From the NCBI GenBank assembly GCA_002733945.2, contig NVXO02000009.1:50882-63060 (forward strand): a DNA stretch of 12,179 bases. The letters are read 5' to 3'. Origin of the DNA: Sulfurimonas sp. GTDB lineage: Bacteria; Campylobacterota; Campylobacteria; Campylobacterales; Sulfurimonadaceae. Below the pieces are notes generated by a model. That model worked only from the letters and a program-made list of their open reading frames with translations. It ran no database searches and was not told the DNA's origin. The position numbers and the translations under genes were made by a program. Positions 2,614 through 10,906 of the stretch are shown in pieces; positions within the stretch are counted from its first letter, which is position 1, and the number at the start of each line of letters is the position of its first letter.

Positions 2614-2951
2614 ATGAATAAGGATAAAAGTAAGATGAAAAACAGTAAATACACCAGAGAATTTAGAGATTCTAGTGTTCAGTTAGTGATAAATTCAGAC
2701 GAGTCAACTGCAAAAATTGCCAAAGATTTGGATGTTAATGAAAAAACGCTTTATAATTGGGTGAGAGAATATAAAAAAGCCAATAATATTCCCATCATGT
2801 CAAGAGGTTATTTAACTACTGGAAATGGAAAAAACAACAACAAAGAAACTGTAGAGGAAGAGGCAAAAAGATTGCGTGCAGAGAATAAACTACTTAAACA
2901 AGAAAGAGACATCTTAAAAAAGGCAACAGCGTATTTCGCCAAAGAAACTCT

Positions 2952-2955
<4 letters not shown>
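2614..2955 (+). CDS. IS3-family transposase OrfA (helix-turn-helix subunit)
   Basis: A 113-residue protein with an N-terminal helix-turn-helix (about residues 10-55: REFRDSSVQLVINSDESTAKIAKDL then VNEKTLYNWVREYKK) that recognises the element ends. A C-terminal leucine-zipper-like coiled coil follows (about 78-105: EEEAKRLRAENKLLKQERDILKKA). This is the standard OrfA architecture. The heptamer A AAA AAG at 2916-2922, in the correct phase within codons TTA AAA AAG, is the classic -1 slippage site that fuses OrfA to OrfB. The OrfA stop TGA (2953-2955) overlaps the orfB ATG at 2952. OrfA itself looks intact. A second in-frame ATG (2635) is a possible alternative start; no strong ribosome binding site decides between them. 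Confidence 0.88.
2916..2922 (+). promoter_or_regulatory. Programmed -1 ribosomal frameshift site (A AAA AAG)
   Basis: The zero frame reads TTA AAA AAG, so the slippery heptamer is in register. Shifting by -1 enters the orfB frame, which is open from here through its ATG at 2952. IS3 elements use this site to make the OrfAB fusion transposase. Confidence 0.75.
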
Positions 2956-3817
<862 letters not shown>

Positions 3818-3874: not shown

Positions 3875-4481
3875 TTATACTACTAAAACCCTCTGCAAAA
3901 ACCAAAATACTGCAACACTCCCGATCATATATGCAAGTAAGAGTCTATAAGCATTTAAGCTAAGTCTTAAAAACTTCTCTATAAGAAAAAATAACACTAA
4001 TAAAATACCGATAAAAAGAAGCTGTCCTATTTCAACTCCTAGATTAAAAAAGAGAAGAGAGGGAACTATGTCATTTGGTGAAAGTCCTATTTCTTTTAAA
4101 ACAGATGCAAACCCCAAACCATGTATTAGTCCAAAAAATGAGGCTATCAGCCACGGGTATTTTTGTGCAAGATAAATTTTACCCCTTGAGTCATACACAA
4201 TCTCAGCCGACACAAAAACGATGGATAATGCAATAAGAACTTCAACTAAAACACTAGAGACAAATATGATGAATACCTAAGTCAATATAGGTATAAATGA
4301 GTTGTAAAAAACCAGACTGATAGTTGATGAGAAGTTCACCTGTCTGGAGTAAAATCCTTTGGATACTAGCACCCCCATCTAAAAAAACTAACTTAGATAT
4401 GAATTCAATTGAACTACTGTCTAAGTTCTTTATTGTTATGACTTCTTTATCTATAGATTTTTGAGTAGTAAACTCTAATTT
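3875..4481 (-). pseudogene. HupE/UreJ-family membrane protein, pseudogene with internal deletion
   Basis: Family members are membrane proteins with a periplasmic N-terminal part and a six- or seven-helix region; a role in metal or hydrogenase/urease-related transport is proposed but not settled. The C-terminal piece (open 4276 down to the stop at 3875) reads SSVLVEVLIALSIVFVSAEIVYD, then the hallmark GLIHGLGFASVL, then two more membrane segments to the natural end FLQRVLVV. A second piece in another frame (4481 down to TAG 4254) gives the end of the periplasmic part and YTYIDLGIHHI, which should lead into a 'GFDHLLF' helix. That helix and the following ones (an estimated 50-70 residues) are absent, and the frame changes at the junction near 4260-4270. 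The start is also missing: a TAA (4482-4484) precedes the second piece. A GTG at 4213 could begin a 112-residue fragment, but no ribosome binding site supports it. Confidence 0.75.
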
Positions 4482-4542: not shown

Positions 4543-5763
4543 TTAATTAAAAAAGTAACTTTTACCTTTGTTTACCCTTGCAAAATGGAAGTCAATACTC
4601 GATAAAAGTCTGCTATCAAGGTAGTGAATATCACTTGCATCTTGTTTTATAAATATTGCAAGTCTCCAGTTTTGTATATCAAGTATAAGAGATTCAATTG
4701 ATACACGTAAACTGCTTCTATGCTCATCACTTAAGTCGTTTACAGCTGTATTATAGAGTAGGGCACTCAGTACTTTTAATGTATTTGATAAGTCTTTAAA
4801 CTCAAAAAGGCTAGCTAATGCTTTTGCATAATTATTAAAAAGTCTAGATAGTTCTGTAAGTATTTCTGTTGTCAGGAGTTCTGCCTTATGAATACTATTT
4901 ATAACATCTTCTTCAAGCTCACTACATTCTGCGATTAAATCATAATCTATATTTATCTCTTGTATATATTGAGCTGCACTGATAGTTGTACATCTCACAG
5001 CATTTATTGTGCATGGTGTTTCTTTTTGAATGATAGAAAGTTTTATTAGAGACTCTTTATATTTATCTATAAACTTATCTTTAAAAAGATAACCTTGTAT
5101 AAAATCTACACCTATCTCTTTTACAACATCTAAATCATTTTGTGTCTCTACCCCTTCTAGCACAGTGTGTTTATTTGATAGTTTTGCATATCTTACTATA
5201 CCTTTTGCTACTTCTATATAAGCTCTGTTTGTTTGGATAGTTCTTATAAAATCCATATCGAGTTTTATTGTGCTGGCTCTATGAAATAAAGAACTTACAA
5301 AAACACTATTTGGTTTTGAGAAATCATCATAAGCAAAATCTACATTTGACTCTTCCAAGCAGTTCATAAAATGTTCTATATGCACTATATTCTCATCATC
5401 AGAATTTTCTATAATTTCGACTACAATATTAGTAGTTGAATTAAAGAGTTTAATCCAATGCATAATATGCTTGGGTTTAGTAGCTACATCGGGGTCAAGG
5501 TTTATAAATAGTTTTTTACCCTTAGGTCTATTTTTGATTTGATATGTTTTTATAACGGATTCTACATCAAAAAATAATTCTAAATTTTTGTGTAAACTTT
5601 TAAAAAATATATCTGGTGCAATTGCTTTTCCTTCATACTTAAATCTACTTAACGCTTCATAACCAATAATATTCATATTCTTTATATCTACAATAGGTTC
5701 ATAAGAAACCCCATAATCCTCATTATCCATAATAGATTTAATAATTTTTTTTGTTAATTTCAT
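4543..5763 (-). CDS. EAL-domain protein, putative cyclic di-GMP phosphodiesterase with uncharacterised C-terminal domain
   Basis: A 406-residue cytoplasmic protein without membrane segments. Residues about 15-245 form an EAL domain, which hydrolyses cyclic di-GMP to pGpG. Visible active-site residues are E36 in EALSRF, N88 in INLD, E116 in VEIIEN, D146-D147 in YDDF, K167 in IKLD, E203 in LEGVET and Q223 in IQGYLF. So the metal- and substrate-binding set appears complete. The loop after DDF is unusual: SKPNS replaces the common GTGYSS, which may lower activity or alter dimer control. Residues about 250-406 form a mainly helical region (SNTLKVLSALLYNTAVNDL; LDIQNWRLAIFIKQDASDIHYLDS) that I do not recognise and that could be a sensor or partner-binding domain. 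A GGAG ribosome binding site precedes ATG 5763. The gene is divergent from feoAB and shares an 86-bp control region with it, so it may respond to iron. Confidence 0.88.
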   Translation of the reverse strand: MKLTKKIIKSIMDNEDYGVSYEPIVDIKNMNIIGYEALSRFKYEGKAIAPDIFFKSLHKNLELFFDVESVIKTYQIKNRPKGKKLFINLDPDVATKPKHIMHWIKLFNSTTNIVVEIIENSDDENIVHIEHFMNCLEESNVDFAYDDFSKPNSVFVSSLFHRASTIKLDMDFIRTIQTNRAYIEVAKGIVRYAKLSNKHTVLEGVETQNDLDVVKEIGVDFIQGYLFKDKFIDKYKESLIKLSIIQKETPCTINAVRCTTISAAQYIQEINIDYDLIAECSELEEDVINSIHKAELLTTEILTELSRLFNNYAKALASLFEFKDLSNTLKVLSALLYNTAVNDLSDEHRSSLRVSIESLILDIQNWRLAIFIKQDASDIHYLDSRLLSSIDFHFARVNKGKSYFFN

Positions 5764-5776
5764 TGTCTCTCCATTT

Positions 5777-5811
5777 AATTTTAAGAATTATATAGTACAA
5801 TTCTTAAAATT
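5777..5811. promoter_or_regulatory. Perfect 13-bp dyad containing back-to-back -10 elements
   Basis: AATTTTAAGAATT (5777-5789) and its exact reverse complement AATTCTTAAAATT (5799-5811) flank a 9-bp spacer. On the minus strand TATAAT (5792-5787) is a good -10 for the EAL gene. On the plus strand TACAAT (5796-5801) or TAAAAT (5805-5810) can serve feoA. The two promoters would thus overlap almost face to back, and one polymerase could exclude the other. The dyad could also bind a dimeric regulator. Confidence 0.6.
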
Positions 5812-5826
5812 TAATAATGATTATCA
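5812..5826 (+). promoter_or_regulatory. Fur box upstream of feoA
   Basis: TAATAATGATTATCA matches the 7-1-7 Fur consensus TGATAATnATTATCA at all but one defined position, and a GATAA follows at 5832. It lies just after the candidate feoA -10 elements, covering the expected transcription start, which fits repression by Fe-Fur. The ribosome binding site starts 12 bp further on. Confidence 0.75.
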
Positions 5827-5837
5827 AAATTGATAAA

Positions 5838-5843
5838 AAGGAG
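5838..5843 (+). promoter_or_regulatory. Ribosome binding site AAGGAG fixing the TTG start of feoA
   Basis: Six bases separate AAGGAG from TTG 5850. This spacing decides the start codon of feoA, which otherwise has no ATG near its conserved N-terminus. Confidence 0.75.
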
Positions 5844-5849
5844 TAGACC

Positions 5850-6074
5850 TTGAGACTGAGTGACATAAAAATAGGTAGTAGGTGCAAGATAATAAATATA
5901 CAAAATAATAAAGCACTCAAGTATAAGTTTATGGATTTTGGTATAAAAAAAGATACAGAGATACTCGTAGAACATATTTCTATATCAAAGTCTAATATAA
6001 CAGTGAAGGTTAAAAACTATACAGTTGCATTAAGAGATTATGAATCGGCTACACTAGAAGTAAGTGCATTATGA
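5850..6074 (+). CDS. feoA: Ferrous iron transport protein A (FeoA)
   Basis: A 74-residue cytoplasmic SH3-like protein that partners the iron(II) transporter FeoB. Family features are the N-terminal LSDIKIGSRCKI, a central KFMDFGIKKDTEI (the usual 'R-L-x-x-LG/MGI-x-x-G' segment in a variant form), and a C-terminal VALRDYESATLEV strand. The start is the unusual codon TTG at 5850, chosen because AAGGAG (5838-5843) sits at ideal distance and no ATG is available before residue 28. The stop TGA (6072-6074) overlaps the feoB ATG (6071) in an ATGA junction, so the two are translationally coupled. Regulation by iron through the Fur box at 5812-5826 is likely. Confidence 0.93.
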   Translation: MRLSDIKIGSRCKIINIQNNKALKYKFMDFGIKKDTEILVEHISISKSNITVKVKNYTVALRDYESATLEVSAL

Positions 6075-8155
6075 AAAAGATAAGAGTGATACTGATAGGT
6101 GAGTCAAATGTTGGAAAAACATCACTTATAAATCTACTTGGTAATAAATACTTTAAAGTAAGTAATTTTTCAGGTACTACTGTAGAAAAAAATATTGCAA
6201 GTTTAAAATATAAAAACCATGAAATAGAATTTATAGACTTACCAGGGATATACAGCATAGATGAATATGCCCAAACAGAAATAAACCTACTTGTAAAAAG
6301 AAAAATACAAGAGAATAAATATGATATCATTTTAAATATAGCAAGTGCTACTATCCTCGATAGAAATCTTAACTTATCTATGGATTTACTCGAACAAAAG
6401 TCTAAGCTTATTTTAGCGATAAATATGATAGATGAGTTAGGTGATGCAAGTATCAATTCTGAGCTTCTATCAGATATTTTAAATATTGATGTGATTCAAA
6501 TATCTACAAAAAACAGTACAAATATCACTCCTCTTTTAGATACTATAGTTAAAGTCTATTCTGAGGACCTAAAGATAAATACTTTTAAGTATCCAAAAGC
6601 TTTAGAACAAGAGTTAAATATGATTGAGTCTTTTTTATCAACAAACTCAAATTATCTTACAGATAAAAGTTTAGATGTAGCCTTAGCTTATATTGGAGTG
6701 AAAAAGAGTGAGCTAAAGGATAGATATATAGCTATGAAACTTTTAGAGAAAGACACAGAAATAACAAAAATTGTTTCTTTTCTTCATTTTTATAATCCTT
6801 TAAAAAAACTATTAGATAATGCTCGAAGTCGTATATATAATTATTATGATACACAAGATTTACTCTACTTAAAAAAAGAGCTCAAACAAAATTTAGCACA
6901 CTCTTTATTTTTACAAACTACTGAAAACTTTGTGCACAAGTCAACTTTAACCAATAAAATTGATAAATTATTAATTAGTAATCTTAGCGGTATAGCGATA
7001 TTTCTTTTTATCATGTGGGTAATATTTGAGAGTACTTTTTATATTGGCTCTATCCCTATGTTATATATTGAAGAGGGATTTAATATCTTAGGAACTTTTC
7101 TTGGTCCACTCATAGACTCTCCTAACCTAAAAAGTCTTATTATAGGTGGAATACTACCAGGGCTCTCTGCTGTTATGATGTTCTTGCCAAATATATTGAT
7201 TTTATTTTTAGGTATCACACTACTCGAAACTACAGGGTATTTAACAAGGGTAAGTTTTCTTCTTGACGGTGTTTTACAAAAGTTTGGTCTGCATGGTCAG
7301 TCAATCATCCCTTTAATAATTGGTTTTGGTTGTACAGTACCCGCTTATATGGCTACAAGAATGTTAGAAAGTAAAAAAGATAAACTTATTACACTATTTT
7401 CTTTAGGTTTTATCAGCTGCTCTGCAAAACTACCTGTGTATGTTTTGTTTATTAGTGCTTTTTTTAAACCTTCTGCCTCAGGAAATATTTTATTTGGGAT
7501 TTATATATTTGGGGTTCTTGTAGCACTTCTAAGTGCTAAGTTCTTGAACAAAACTATTTTTAAAGCCTCTAAAGAGACTTATATTATGGAACTGCCACAG
7601 TATAGACTTCCATCTTTTAAACTCATATATATGAGTGTATGGTTAAAGTCCATTTCTTATGTTAAAAAAGCGGGTATATACATCACACTTATATCCATGC
7701 TTATTTGGTTTGCATCTAGTTATCCAAAATATGATGTAGTAGATTCAAATACAAGGTTTTACAAACTTGAGCATAGCTATTTAGGACAGTTGGGTAAATC
7801 TTTAGAACCTATTTTTAAACCTTTAGGTTTTGACTGGAAAATGTCTGTCTCTCTTATGTCAGGAATGGCAGCAAAGGAAGTGATAGTATCTACTCTGAGC
7901 ATTTTATATGTAGTAGAACAAAATAATAGTAATAATAATGAGTTAATAAAAAAACTTCGAGTAAGTATTGATTTTGCTTCGGCTGTCTCTTTTATAGTCT
8001 TTATCACTTTGTATCTTCCATGTTTTGCCGCTACAATTGTTTTTACCAAAGAAAGTGGAGAAATAAAGTATTTATTTTATTTAGTGTTTTTCACACTCTC
8101 TTTTAGTTGGTTGGCTTCATATAGTGCATATAATATAGTGAGGATGATGACATGA
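6071..8155 (+). CDS. feoB: Ferrous iron transporter FeoB
   Basis: An inner-membrane iron(II) transporter with a cytoplasmic G domain, 694 residues; shorter than the 773 of E. coli FeoB. G motifs are visible: G1 GESNVGKT (10-17), G2 within SNFSGTT (31-37), G3 DLPGIYS (56-62) and G4 NMID (118-121). The first G1 residues (GES) differ from the common GNP/GQP. A helical spacer follows (about 170-300). The membrane part starts near residue 305 and includes the first gate region GFGCTVPAYMATRMLE with its conserved Cys, and the second gate region around VWLKSISYVKKAGIYI. It also has the conserved MSGMAAKEVIVSTLSILY. The reading frame is intact. Its TGA overlaps the ATG of the following GGDEF gene, so a signalling enzyme is made from the same message. 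Confidence 0.95.
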   Translation: MKKIRVILIGESNVGKTSLINLLGNKYFKVSNFSGTTVEKNIASLKYKNHEIEFIDLPGIYSIDEYAQTEINLLVKRKIQENKYDIILNIASATILDRNLNLSMDLLEQKSKLILAINMIDELGDASINSELLSDILNIDVIQISTKNSTNITPLLDTIVKVYSEDLKINTFKYPKALEQELNMIESFLSTNSNYLTDKSLDVALAYIGVKKSELKDRYIAMKLLEKDTEITKIVSFLHFYNPLKKLLDNARSRIYNYYDTQDLLYLKKELKQNLAHSLFLQTTENFVHKSTLTNKIDKLLISNLSGIAIFLFIMWVIFESTFYIGSIPMLYIEEGFNILGTFLGPLIDSPNLKSLIIGGILPGLSAVMMFLPNILILFLGITLLETTGYLTRVSFLLDGVLQKFGLHGQSIIPLIIGFGCTVPAYMATRMLESKKDKLITLFSLGFISCSAKLPVYVLFISAFFKPSASGNILFGIYIFGVLVALLSAKFLNKTIFKASKETYIMELPQYRLPSFKLIYMSVWLKSISYVKKAGIYITLISMLIWFASSYPKYDVVDSNTRFYKLEHSYLGQLGKSLEPIFKPLGFDWKMSVSLMSGMAAKEVIVSTLSILYVVEQNNSNNNELIKKLRVSIDFASAVSFIVFITLYLPCFAATIVFTKESGEIKYLFYLVFFTLSFSWLASYSAYNIVRMMT

Positions 8156-9456
8156 AAATGTCTACTGCAATAAATATCTCAATAATTATATTTTTAATTA
8201 TTGCCACTATTTTAATTAACTATAGTTTGACAAGTTTTGCAAATGCAATTACTGTTAGTGCTAGTATAGATGATAAAGTATTTGAATACAGTGTAGTGTT
8301 TTTTATCTATTTTGCTTGTATTTTACTTATTTTGCGTGTTGAAGTATATCTTCTTTTCATAAATCCAATTACAAAAATAAAGAAATATATACACAGTTTA
8401 AAACACAAAAATGATGGGAATAATAACAAAAAAAGTTTATCTTGTATAGGAAAGGAGTTTAAGGACTTAGTTGAGCTTATAGAATGTCTAGATAAAGAAC
8501 TCCAAGAGTTGTCAATGACGTTTGAGACAAGTGTAAAAGAGAATACACAAGAGTTAGCACTCTCAAATGAAAAACTAAATGAAGAAAAAGAGTTTGCACA
8601 TAAAATAATTGATAAACTCAGTGATATAGTCTTTGTTATAAAAGATAATAGTTTAGTAAATGCCAATAATAATTTTTATAAGAGATTTAAAAACTTAGAA
8701 TCTTTTCTAGAATGTTCAGGTCATAGTAAATTTGTACAGTGCCTAGAAAAATGTGAATCATGTAAAGAGTACTTAAAAGTTGATGCACAACTTTTTTCAG
8801 TAAATATAGAGTTGTTTAATGAAAACTACTACATCGTAACACTCATTGATATGACAGCCTATAATGAAAGTATAAAATATGCGCAAGATCAAAATCCACT
8901 CACAAAATTACCTGGAAATGAATCTATAAAAAAATATATGTATTCACTCTTAAAACTGAAAGAACCAGCAGTAATTATCTACTTTGATTTTGATAACTTT
9001 AAACCATTTAATGACAAGTATGGTTTTGAGTTAGGAGACAGAATGATTAGTAGTTTTGCAGATATATTAAAAGCTAAAGAGTGTACTTACAATGTATTTA
9101 ATGCTCATATTGGTGGGGATGACTTCTTTTGTAGTATAAAAGAGCCATCAGACACTGCAATAAGCATGGTAAAAGATGTTATCAATAGTTTTACACTTAA
9201 TGCGAAACAATTCTATTCTAAAGAGGATATAAACAATAATTGTGTAATGCTAAAAGATAGAGAAGGTAATGAAAAAAGCTTTCCACTTTTGAGTGTTAGT
9301 GCTGTAGTTGTAAACATTGCTCCAAACTCACAGCAAATTACTTATATAGAATTGACAAAGATTATAGCTTCGATGAAAAAAGTATCTAAGATGTCAGAAA
9401 ATAAATTAGCTGCAGTATCAGTTATAGCCTATGCCGAGTACTGTAGTAAAGAATAG
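8152..9456 (+). CDS. Membrane-anchored GGDEF-domain protein (putative diguanylate cyclase) co-transcribed with feoAB
   Basis: A 434-residue protein that may make cyclic di-GMP. Two membrane segments (about 5-27 and 47-70) enclose a short periplasmic loop, then a HAMP-like stretch (INPITKIKKYI) and a coiled coil (about 100-150). Residues about 150-235 form a PAS-like sensor region containing C188, H191, C197, C201 and C204 (CSGHSKFVQCLEKCESC), a possible metal, Fe-S or redox site. The GGDEF domain (about 245-434) begins NPLTKLPGN, has the metal-binding FDFDNFKPFNDKYGFELGD, and carries GGDDF at 321-325 in place of GGDEF. No RxxD inhibitory site precedes it. GGDDF with LPGN occurs in a known subgroup whose activity cannot be assumed. 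The ATG overlaps the feoB stop (ATGA) with GAGG at 8140-8143. The 3' end overlaps the convergent 76-codon gene by 28 bp. Confidence 0.9.
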   Translation: MKMSTAINISIIIFLIIATILINYSLTSFANAITVSASIDDKVFEYSVVFFIYFACILLILRVEVYLLFINPITKIKKYIHSLKHKNDGNNNKKSLSCIGKEFKDLVELIECLDKELQELSMTFETSVKENTQELALSNEKLNEEKEFAHKIIDKLSDIVFVIKDNSLVNANNNFYKRFKNLESFLECSGHSKFVQCLEKCESCKEYLKVDAQLFSVNIELFNENYYIVTLIDMTAYNESIKYAQDQNPLTKLPGNESIKKYMYSLLKLKEPAVIIYFDFDNFKPFNDKYGFELGDRMISSFADILKAKECTYNVFNAHIGGDDFFCSIKEPSDTAISMVKDVINSFTLNAKQFYSKEDINNNCVMLKDREGNEKSFPLLSVSAVVVNIAPNSQQITYIELTKIIASMKKVSKMSENKLAAVSVIAYAEYCSKE

Positions 9457-9680: not shown

Positions 9681-10190
9681 TTACTTTGAAAAGTAGGGTG
9701 TTATTTGCTCTATCCATGTTGTTATACGGTCATCACTGAGCTCTTCTTGGGTGTGCTCATCTAGTACTAAACCGACAAACTATCCATCTCTAAGAGCAGA
9801 GGAGTCTTCAAAGTTATATCCATCAGTGGGCCATGTTCCAACTACATTAGCACCATTTTCTAAGACTTTATCATAGATAATACCCATGGCATCTAAAAAG
9901 TTTTGACAGTACTGCTTTTGGTCACCAAGCCCAAATATTGCAACAGTTTTATTAAGAAGGTTATACTCATTAAGATTGGACATATAATCTTCCCAATCAT
10001 CTTGAAGTTCACTCTTCCCCCAGCTAGGGATACCAAAAATAATCAAGTCATATTTATTTATTGCATCATCAATGCAGTCACTTAAGTTATTAAGATCTAT
10101 ACTAAACTCAGACATTTTTTCTTTAATTATTTTGGCTGTATCTTCTACTTCTCCTGTGTTCGTTCCATAAAATAGTCCTATTTTTCTCAT
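9681..10190 (-). pseudogene. fldA: Flavodoxin gene interrupted by a premature TAG (codon 137)
   Basis: Flavodoxin is a small FMN electron carrier that replaces ferredoxin when iron is scarce. The protein shows the phosphate loop GTNTGEVEDTA (9-19), the first flavin loop with Trp57 (IPSWGKSELQDDWEDY) and the second with Tyr94 (GLGDQKQYCQNFLDAMG). These match the classic Trp57 and Tyr94 that sandwich the flavin. The frame stops at TAG 9780-9782 after SSALRDG. Beyond it the same frame continues without change as FVGLVLDEHTQEELSDDRITTWIEQITPYFSK to TAA 9681-9683, giving the expected 169 residues. CAG or AAG was probably the original codon. Losing the last strand and helix should destabilise the fold. 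The lesion may be real, a sequencing error or suppressed. ATG 10190 lies one base after the proposed original stop of the upstream gene. Confidence 0.88.
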
Positions 10191-10191
10191 A

Positions 10192-10712
10192 TTATGCTAC
10201 TTCAAGTGGCACAGCTATATTTTTTTATTGATACGACTAGATACTGCTTTGATAAAGATACTGTTCAGGTCAAGCATCATCTCAATTTCTTTACCATTAA
10301 ATATAAGCTGAATAAGATCAATACAAGGGTGTGAATATCCAAGTAACATTTTAAATTCTGGATTAAAGTGTATACTTTTTGCTAGGTACCTCATTTTTGG
10401 GTGCTTACTCTGTTTAAAGTACTGGTTAAAAAGAAGAGAGTCTTCTTTATATATAGATACAATCTTTTGACTCTTTTGTGGTTCAAACTTATAAAATGGA
10501 AAAAATGAGAGTATTTTCTCTTCAAATATTCCAAGCAATGAGTGAGCAAACAATTGCTCATTTTTTAAGTCAAACTGTGACTGTGTTGAAAGGTATTGAT
10601 TTATCATTGTGCAAAACATCTTGCGTTGACATGTGATTTCATTTACCATATATGTTTTAGGTAAAACTTCTTTGGTTGTCTGTTTATATTTTTCGAAACC
10701 TAATTTACGCAT
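10192..10712 (-). CDS. Uncharacterised iron-regulated protein upstream of flavodoxin; C-terminus probably altered by a frameshift
   Basis: The uninterrupted frame is 10215-10712 (165 residues). I do not recognise the family. The protein is soluble and probably helical, with Cys at 28, 34 and 130 and His at 56, 104, 115 and 128. ATG 10712 follows AAAGGA at good spacing, and a Fur-box-like site overlaps the promoter. The frame ends INKKI-TAG (10215-10217) directly after a run of seven A. If one A is restored, the protein would continue as INKKNIAVPLEVA and stop at TAA 10192-10194, one base before the flavodoxin ATG. That tight coupling suggests the longer form is the original. Context (Fur control, flavodoxin next) points to a low-iron role. 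Confidence 0.65.
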
Positions 10713-10726
10713 TATTTAGTCCTTTA

Positions 10727-10741
10727 TTGATAATCGTTATT
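10727..10741 (-). promoter_or_regulatory. Fur box over the promoter of the flavodoxin operon
   Basis: On the minus strand AATAACGATTATCAA contains the palindromic core of a Fur box (compare TGATAATnATTATCA). It follows directly after a -10 candidate TACAAT (10750-10745) and precedes AAAGGA of the 165-codon gene. The block GTACAATTCT...AATAA-y-GATTATCA is shared with the feoA promoter, where the spacing between the parts differs. Confidence 0.65.
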
Positions 10742-10767
10742 AGAATTGTACAGAGTAAAGCTTATAT

Positions 10768-10782
10768 TGATATTAATTATCA
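10768..10782. promoter_or_regulatory. Fur-box-like palindrome midway between divergent iron-locus promoters
   Basis: TGATATTAATTATCA matches TGATAATnATTATCA except at one position. It lies between the two divergent transcription units and could serve either or extend Fur binding across the region. Confidence 0.6.
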
Positions 10783-10811
10783 ATATAATATTATTTTAAG
10801 GGAACCCCTAT

Positions 10812-10817
10812 TATAAT
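10812..10817 (+). promoter_or_regulatory. -10 element of the short plus-strand transcript
   Basis: A perfect TATAAT sits immediately before the third Fur-box-like site, placing the transcription start near 10824. No clear -35 is seen, which is common in Campylobacterota promoters. Confidence 0.6.
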
Positions 10818-10819
10818 AT

Positions 10820-10834
10820 CGATAAGAATTATCA
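10820..10834 (+). promoter_or_regulatory. Fur box over the start of the micro-ORF transcript
   Basis: CGATAAGAATTATCA matches the 7-1-7 Fur consensus at all but two defined positions. It covers the expected transcription start, so iron repression is likely. Confidence 0.65.
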
Positions 10835-10849
10835 ATAAGGAGTAAAACA

Positions 10850-10906
10850 ATGTTTGATTTGAACAATAAAAATGACATAAGTAAGTTTACTGGCAAAGCG
10901 TGTTAG
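10850..10906 (+). CDS. Micro-ORF 1, 18 residues, behind a strong ribosome binding site
   Basis: ATG 10850 follows AAGGAG (10837-10842) with 7-base spacing. The peptide reads MFDLNNKNDISKFTGKAC and ends at TAG. I recognise no family. It could be a real small peptide, a leader peptide, or the start of a gene whose remainder has decayed. It is too short to judge from composition, so the support is the ribosome binding site, the Fur-controlled promoter and the following terminator. Confidence 0.4.
   Translation: MFDLNNKNDISKFTGKAC

Follow-up and report, generated by a model that had tools for sequence, protein, structure and literature searches.

Gene content and organization of the locus

We analysed a 12,179-nucleotide stretch of a Sulfurimonas sp. 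genome (assembly GCA_002733945.2, contig NVXO02000009.1, positions 50,882 to 63,060; hereafter the window) in which genes for ferrous iron uptake lie beside genes of cyclic dimeric guanosine monophosphate (c-di-GMP) signalling. On the minus strand, a gene at 4543..5763 encodes an EAL protein (PF00563, E = 2.3e-31) whose EAL domain comprises residues 1-240 and is followed by a C-terminal helical extension (~245-406). A divergent control region of 86 bp (5764..5849), bounded by the EAL start at 5763 and the feoA start at 5850, separates it from three genes on the plus strand: feoA (5850..6074; TTG start behind AAGGAG; PF04023, E = 9.9e-13), feoB (6071..8155; TIGR00437, 510.5 bits, cut-off 315.65), which encodes the genome's second FeoB, and a GGDEF gene with a cyclase-like product (8152..9456; PF00990, E = 7e-12). 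The FeoA domain and the GTPase, Gate and FeoB_C domains of FeoB all score above curated cut-offs, and by these domain criteria the two genes encode a FeoAB ferrous iron transporter, with Fe(II) transport predicted. The feoA stop and feoB start share an ATGA at 6071-6074, as do the feoB stop and GGDEF-gene start at 8152-8155. A preliminary description of the locus had reported this gene order, the strands, both overlaps and the divergent gap, all of which we recovered at the positions given here; its reading of feoAB and the GGDEF gene as one translationally coupled unit likewise agrees with an ATGA at both junctions.

An ordinary second feoAB is present on another contig (C22) of this 2.34 Mb genome, and the window FeoB is 43% identical to this resident protein. 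A genus search with the window FeoB gave matches in 56 of 60 genomes (own genome included) which, own copy excepted, were 39-54% identical, with the highest values on partial matches and one extra copy at 33%; identities of only 39-54% rule out the window protein as an ordinary FeoB of the genus. The guanine-cytosine (GC) content of the four-gene cluster is 28.6%, against 33.9% in the own-genome background. The window feoAB set looks accessory and was probably acquired. It resembles other feoAB and feoABC operons in its feoA-feoB order and its Fur-box match, but differs from them in having a third gene for a GGDEF protein and a control region that also serves a divergent EAL gene.

A Fur-box-like site between the EAL gene and feoA

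The preliminary description had also placed a Fur box in the shared control region, and one such match does lie between the EAL gene and feoA. This site, TAATAATGATTATCA at 5812-5826, agrees with the 7-1-7 Fur core TGATAATnATTATCA at 13 of 14 positions and is the sole match of at least 11/14 within the 86-bp gap. The window has two matches of 13/14, the other at 10768, where a first-order Markov copy of it would be expected to give ~0.02. Weak promoter-like sites in both directions overlap or abut 5812-5826, from which we infer that one bound Fur could block both directions; promoter matches in the region hardly exceed those in shuffled sequence (40, against a mean of 33.3 and a standard deviation of 5.4). 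Elsewhere in the genome, a 13/14 match lies upstream of feoA in the resident feoAB (L094:8621-8635) and a 12/14 match at a second gene of the same EAL family, and these were the only matches of at least 12/14 in 68.8 kb of own-genome background. With a Fur-box-like promoter site beyond chance, the window locus is a candidate member of the Fur regulon.

A stand-alone EAL family with Fur-box matches

The window EAL protein belongs to a family of stand-alone EAL proteins, usually of ~237 residues. We searched 228 genomes of the family Sulfurimonadaceae and a phylum sample of 397 genomes, each set including the window's own genome and the two overlapping, and scored the best 8 (family) or best 4 (phylum) EAL candidates per genome. 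The EAL family was found in 11 of the 228 genomes (E<=1e-40) and, under a less strict threshold, in 30 of the 397, representing 13 of 68 genera. Residues E36, E116, E119, D146, D147, K167, E203 and E206 are identical in all 28 aligned rows (window row included), and N88 and Q223 are kept in 27 of them; we take the residues checked to be catalytic. Six of the EAL catalytic residues are named in the available part of PMC7290235. In the structure model of the EAL protein (mean predicted local distance difference test score, pLDDT, of 80.0, a moderate value as is the 75.0 of the GGDEF protein), pLDDT is mostly ~90 or more over the EAL domain, and Foldseek matched the model to solved EAL domains (e.g. 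4q6j, 8arv, and 3u2e). The fold and catalytic residues of a c-di-GMP phosphodiesterase are present, and catalysis is predicted.

The C-terminal 160 residues of the EAL protein (~245-406) are helical and match no Pfam family, and the best 50 Foldseek matches gave no lead for this extension. Related sequences form the C-terminus of other proteins in the order, several of which carry receiver or PAS parts (read by eye). This helical domain (window EAL; L178-L196) has a DIHYLD-type motif, often with an acidic end bearing EFF or ELF, and has matches in 17 of 41 relative genomes, with 13 matches in one genome.

To compare promoter regions, we studied 39 Campylobacterota loci of the EAL family (L092, which is the window, L081-L090, L098, L104, L159, and L222-L246), dropping L091, L096, L097, L099 and L100, each a second copy of a locus already included. 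A match of at least 12/14 was counted as a Fur box, either directly, in the 250 bp before the EAL gene, or by a looser test that also admitted the head of a co-directional gene run. A direct match was found at 23 of the 39 loci, and a direct or run-head match at 35. By comparison, among 364 genes in 40 regions chosen arbitrarily from 15 of these genomes, five had a direct match and eight a direct or run-head match (Fisher p of 1.8e-22 and 3.4e-38, respectively, uncorrected for relatedness); gene runs touching an edge were excluded from this control and kept for the EAL loci. Arbitrary regions served as the control because other genes of the 39 loci, of which 18 of 288 had direct matches and 118 of 288 matches by the looser test, lie in partly iron-rich neighbourhoods. 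After collapsing related EAL sequences, direct matches were retained in 18 of 28 clusters at 80% identity and 8 of 16 at 70%. None of the 10 usable upstream regions of EAL-CBS-GGDDF genes, taken as a negative control (10 of 29 loci usable), held a Fur-box match. In L091 (83-805, minus strand), the EAL-family gene has one internal stop in the assembly, and an intact relative (P0166) exists.

A further 73 EAL loci, taken as lying outside Campylobacterota, came from a few other groups and, for the most part, from marine Gammaproteobacteria (e.g. Marinomonas, Neptuniibacter, and Shewanella). Among those with GC below 0.55, a direct match was present at 23 of 58 loci, nine of these matches being at least 13/14 and four of them perfect, whereas for the remaining genes of loci within the same divergence and GC limits the count was 14 of 836 (a group that includes four Campylobacterota loci). 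A control restricted to intergenic matches gave 21 of 61 against 19 of 512 in the distant group. Because the non-Campylobacterota EAL loci that we looked at often have no obvious iron genes nearby (by eye), the Fur box seems, from these sequence comparisons, to follow the EAL gene and not its neighbourhood.

Iron-related neighbourhoods of EAL relatives

Iron markers (FeoB, FTR1, TonB receptor, imelysin, flavodoxin, or a Fur-family protein, within 6.4 kb) occur near the EAL gene at 18 of 39 loci as compared to 5 of 40 arbitrary regions (p = 0.001), although the marker queries came mostly from the same loci, which favours them. The arrangements are varied. At L104, feoAB and the EAL gene form one gene run behind a Fur-box match, and the same run recurs in another genome (L238); a co-directional feoB adjoins the EAL gene at L226 and L244; the EAL gene of L098 lies in an FTR1 run; and that of L083 is surrounded by flavodoxin, FTR1, and Fur-family genes. 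L159 is a TonB-receptor run, with Fur-box matches at its head, in which the EAL gene is followed by one for a canonical GGEEF-domain protein, and is an independent pairing of the EAL family with a cyclase. In one metagenome protein (P0146), the DNA-binding part of a Fur-family protein is fused to an EAL domain of the family, and at L089 and L090 a small stand-alone winged-helix protein of the same kind is encoded beside the EAL gene. The search of 228 family genomes (E<=1e-20, best 9 candidates per genome) gave no full-length fusion, while stand-alone Fur-type winged-helix proteins of 107-121 residues occur in eight of those genomes. The EAL gene of a Shewanella locus (L150) lies behind a gene for a 152-residue protein resembling Fur itself (by eye).

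Two further settings were observed. At L232-L235, L237, L240-L242, L245, and L246, all from a single family of the order, an apparent rpoC (by eye) stands two genes before the EAL gene, which has a direct Fur-box match at 10 of 10 loci. At L224, L226-L228, L230, L231, L236, and L244, a gene for a 102-118-residue protein, presumably of the DUF2325 type, immediately precedes the EAL gene behind a Fur-box match.

The GGDDF protein

In the model of the GGDEF-gene product, a pair of N-terminal helices that appear to span the membrane precedes a long helix, a PAS-like middle region and the GGDEF domain. Foldseek matched the GGDEF model to PAS-GGDEF proteins, PleD, DgcB, and WspR. In an alignment of 11 rows, those residues of the GGDEF domain that we presume to contact metal and guanine are kept, and the fourth motif position is D, not E, in all 10 rows that cover it. 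The identification of a GGDEF gene in the preliminary description is sound with respect to the PF00990 domain but does not extend to the signature motif, which is GGDDF and departs from GG(D/E)EF; no RxxD site was seen just before this motif in the window protein.

Two groups of known proteins invite comparison. GSU1937, a Hypr cyclic GMP-AMP (cGAMP) synthase from Geobacter, has the same GGDDF motif and is reported as active in the available part of its source (PMC8835794), which also describes a GGDDF/EAL protein, PA3258, that showed no effect. The window protein differs from GSU1937 in having an aspartate, D296, at what we take to be the Hypr serine position. This residue is Asp in 10 of 10 covering rows, and the selectivity serine of a Hypr cGAMP synthase is absent at this presumed position. 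EAL-CBS-GGDEF proteins are nearest to the window GGDEF domain outside its own small group among the matches listed (~34-51% identity, mostly over ~190 residues), and the three aligned share the GGDDF motif; for a Bordetella protein of this type with GGDDF, the accessible text reports no activity (PMC12805831). In contrast to these proteins, EAL and GGDDF are carried in the window by two genes of opposite orientation, the place of CBS is taken by N-terminal helices and a PAS-like domain, and the window EAL protein is 23-30% identical to their EAL part where tblastn aligned it. With no CBS match and an EAL identity of only 23-30%, the locus does not qualify as a split version of the EAL-CBS-GGDEF family.

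Recurrence of the cluster

Relatives of the GGDEF protein were sought in the same genome sets (best 7 candidates per genome in the family, best 4 in the phylum). At E<=1e-28, 110 of the 228 family genomes match, mostly in the GGDEF domain only and mostly in frames of ~590 residues; own copy aside, none of the matches listed reaches the first 97 of the 434 residues. In the phylum sample (E<=1e-48), two of 397 genomes match, one being the window's own and the other covering the GGDEF domain only. Matches in the protein collection were largely EAL-CBS-GGDEF proteins. Near relatives also occur in that collection, of 88, 63, 61, 53, and 42% identity over most of the length and one of 65% over 60% of it. 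Conservation of the GGDEF or EAL gene beside feoAB among Campylobacterota, which the preliminary description had proposed as a check, received a divided answer, in that no full-length GGDEF relative was found in the other genomes of the 228 and 397 searched but metagenome assemblies do have such proteins.

In the same collection, the relatives of FeoB are 76, 67, 62, and 52% identical before a drop to 46-47% (best 120 of 6612 matches), and those of the EAL protein are 57, 57, and 45% identical over 95-96% of the length. The 61% GGDEF entry, the 67% FeoB entry and one of the 57% EAL entries each come from a contig of 5220 bp, approximately the space required by the four genes. Likewise, the 53% GGDEF and 62% FeoB entries each come from a contig of 146,068 bp, with no EAL entry from a contig of this size among the matches listed. 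Entries with equal contig sizes very likely derive from common contigs. Since related EAL, FeoB, and GGDEF entries come from equal-sized contigs, the four-gene cluster probably recurs in other lineages, and the FeoB-GGDEF pairing claimed in the preliminary description likewise probably exists elsewhere. In the literature, mostly judged without full text, we did not recognise a description of feoAB with an adjacent GGDEF gene or of a Fur-controlled stand-alone EAL family.

A proposed iron-responsive c-di-GMP module

We hypothesize that the locus is a Fur-controlled low-iron module. When iron is sufficient, Fur bound at 5812-5826 would keep both the EAL unit and the feoA-feoB-GGDDF unit low; as iron falls, Fur would be released from this one site and both transcripts would rise. 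FeoAB would then be made for uptake alongside a soluble EAL phosphodiesterase, which would lower c-di-GMP and so favour departure from a surface or movement towards iron. Produced together with FeoB, the membrane PAS-GGDDF protein would be a signal-dependent membrane partner, either as a conditional cyclase locally opposing the phosphodiesterase or as a nucleotide-binding regulator. We assign this explanation as a whole, in which we infer expression, Fur binding, catalysis and phenotype, a probability of about 0.6. Fur control of the module is highly probable and a c-di-GMP-lowering activity of the EAL protein likely, while any particular role for the GGDDF protein is tentative. Iron shortage would, in this model, probably feed directly into the decision to swim or settle.

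The preliminary description had instead proposed that FeoAB and the cyclase are induced together by low iron and the EAL gene is under separate or opposite control, which would couple iron status to biofilm or motility. On that reading, c-di-GMP would rise in iron scarcity. The coupling of the GGDEF gene to feoB through ATGA, the reported activity of the GGDDF enzyme GSU1937 (available part of PMC8835794) and the kept residues with presumed metal and guanine contacts are all compatible with such a cyclase. Separate or opposite control of the EAL gene, however, is made unlikely by the single Fur-box match in the gap and by the EAL relatives' own Fur boxes (35 of 39, against 8 of 364 control genes). 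Because one Fur box lies in the gap and those of the EAL relatives occur in many unrelated neighbourhoods, Fur co-repression of the EAL gene and feoAB is the better reading, and the EAL gene is probably co-regulated with feoAB, both transcripts being expected to rise in low iron. Together with the lack of effect of the GGDDF/EAL protein PA3258 in the same source (PMC8835794), this makes a rise in c-di-GMP through cyclase induction unlikely. It is possible, if doubtful, that the GGDDF protein is no enzyme and acts on FeoB or the EAL protein as a membrane regulator binding GTP or c-di-GMP. The D for E at the fourth motif position in all 10 covering rows, the lack of an RxxD site in the residues just before the window motif, and the proximity of its GGDEF domain to EAL-CBS-GGDEF proteins, with their Bordetella example lacking reported activity in the accessible text (PMC12805831), would fit this role, but the other active-site residues are intact and a GGDDF enzyme can be active, as the available part of PMC8835794 indicates.

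The four genes might also stand together by coincidence, through the landing of a foreign segment in a mobile or decaying island. This would account for the transposase-like fragments upstream (by eye), the GC difference, the broken adjacent flavodoxin and the failure of the 228-genome family and 397-genome phylum searches to give a full-length match to the GGDEF protein outside the own genome. Yet the four genes are open where their neighbours are broken, FeoB, GGDEF and EAL relatives occur on contigs of 5220 bp and FeoB and GGDEF relatives on contigs of 146,068 bp, and the EAL gene keeps its Fur-box matches from one context to another, which together make mere coincidence quite improbable.

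Several observations weigh against the Fur-controlled phosphodiesterase module that we favour. The 12/14 threshold and the list of iron markers were chosen after the first loci had been viewed. By either test, a Fur box is missing at four of the 39 EAL loci (L223, L225, L229, and L243), and after collapsing at 60% identity a direct match remains in only 4 of 11 clusters. The intergenic-only control at the same loci gives a smaller contrast in the close group (10 of 12 against 8 of 50), only 23 of 58 loci of GC below 0.55 outside Campylobacterota have a direct match, and none of the 15 high-GC relatives there does. Proximity to FeoB taken alone is not significant (6 of 39 EAL loci against 3 of 40 arbitrary regions) and was rejected as a main argument. 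With respect to function, loop 6 of the EAL protein reads DDFSKPNS (alignment consensus YDDFxKPNS) and not the canonical DFG(T/A)GYSS, and loop 6 is described as essential for dimerisation in the available part of PMC7290235; c-di-GMP hydrolysis is therefore predicted and not certain. The GGDDF motif, for its part, may be inactive.

Known systems provide both a precedent and a caution. SO2039 of Shewanella oneidensis, an EAL protein of the window family or of another and placed in an iron-acquisition module with FeoB, is induced ~3- to 5-fold upon iron depletion (PMC2667191, in the part available), which is evidence that an EAL gene can be iron-induced. The same part mentions no link to feoAB and no function, and SO2039 did not come up in a term search of the available text of a paper on the Shewanella fur mutant (PMC2386053), which is a further point against our model. 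In Vibrio cholerae, Fur acts directly on EAL and GGDEF genes (vieSAB and cdgD) with Fur-box-like sequences; there, however, it activates vieSAB, the EAL operon, and represses cdgD, its lowering of c-di-GMP and biofilm does not depend on iron, and the accessible part of the report mentions no link to feoAB (PMC7641913). Because V. cholerae Fur activates its EAL operon (PMC7641913, same part), the direction of the Fur effect proposed here is provisional.

We regard the broader Fur-linked EAL family as a more interesting result than the four-gene set. On balance, we favour the view that Fur-controlled stand-alone EAL phosphodiesterases form a dedicated and largely unrecognised family, present in Campylobacterota and in some of the Gammaproteobacteria, that would act as an "iron arm" within c-di-GMP signalling. 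The family would have been recruited repeatedly beside feoAB, FTR1, TonB receptor and flavodoxin genes, once fused to a Fur-type DNA-binding domain, and here set beside a cyclase-like protein coupled to FeoB. Both iron and c-di-GMP are known to influence life on surfaces, and the published links that we found concern single species. If one phosphodiesterase family usually bears a Fur box within one phylum and frequently within part of a second, this would generalise the link in a directly testable form. The four-gene feo arrangement would be a compact natural construct in which iron uptake and synthesis-like and degradation parts stand under one operator.

Other features of the window

Downstream of the cluster, a flavodoxin gene (9780..10190, minus strand; PF00258, E = 4e-18) is interrupted by an in-frame TAG after codon 136; the same frame encodes a flavodoxin-like end beyond this stop, which suggests that the gene decayed recently or that the TAG is a sequencing error. 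This gene is an iron-stress neighbour outside the feo operon. Upstream of it on the same strand, 10215..10712 encodes a 165-residue protein that has no Pfam match and whose relatives in two other loci, of 264 and 268 residues, are likewise encoded beside flavodoxin and the EAL family. Three Fur-box-like sites (12, 13, and 12 of 14) span ~107 bp at 10728..10834, upstream of the 165-residue protein and flavodoxin genes. On the plus strand, only very short frames lie near 10,850 and 10,940 (by eye).

On the other side of the cluster, the transposase-like fragments, read by eye, include an IS3-like transposase in several short frames at 2614-3817 (plus strand), and a further transposase-like frame lies at 431-1117. 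A HupE/UreJ-like fragment (PF13795) at 3875-4213 on the minus strand aligns to the second half of the model only.

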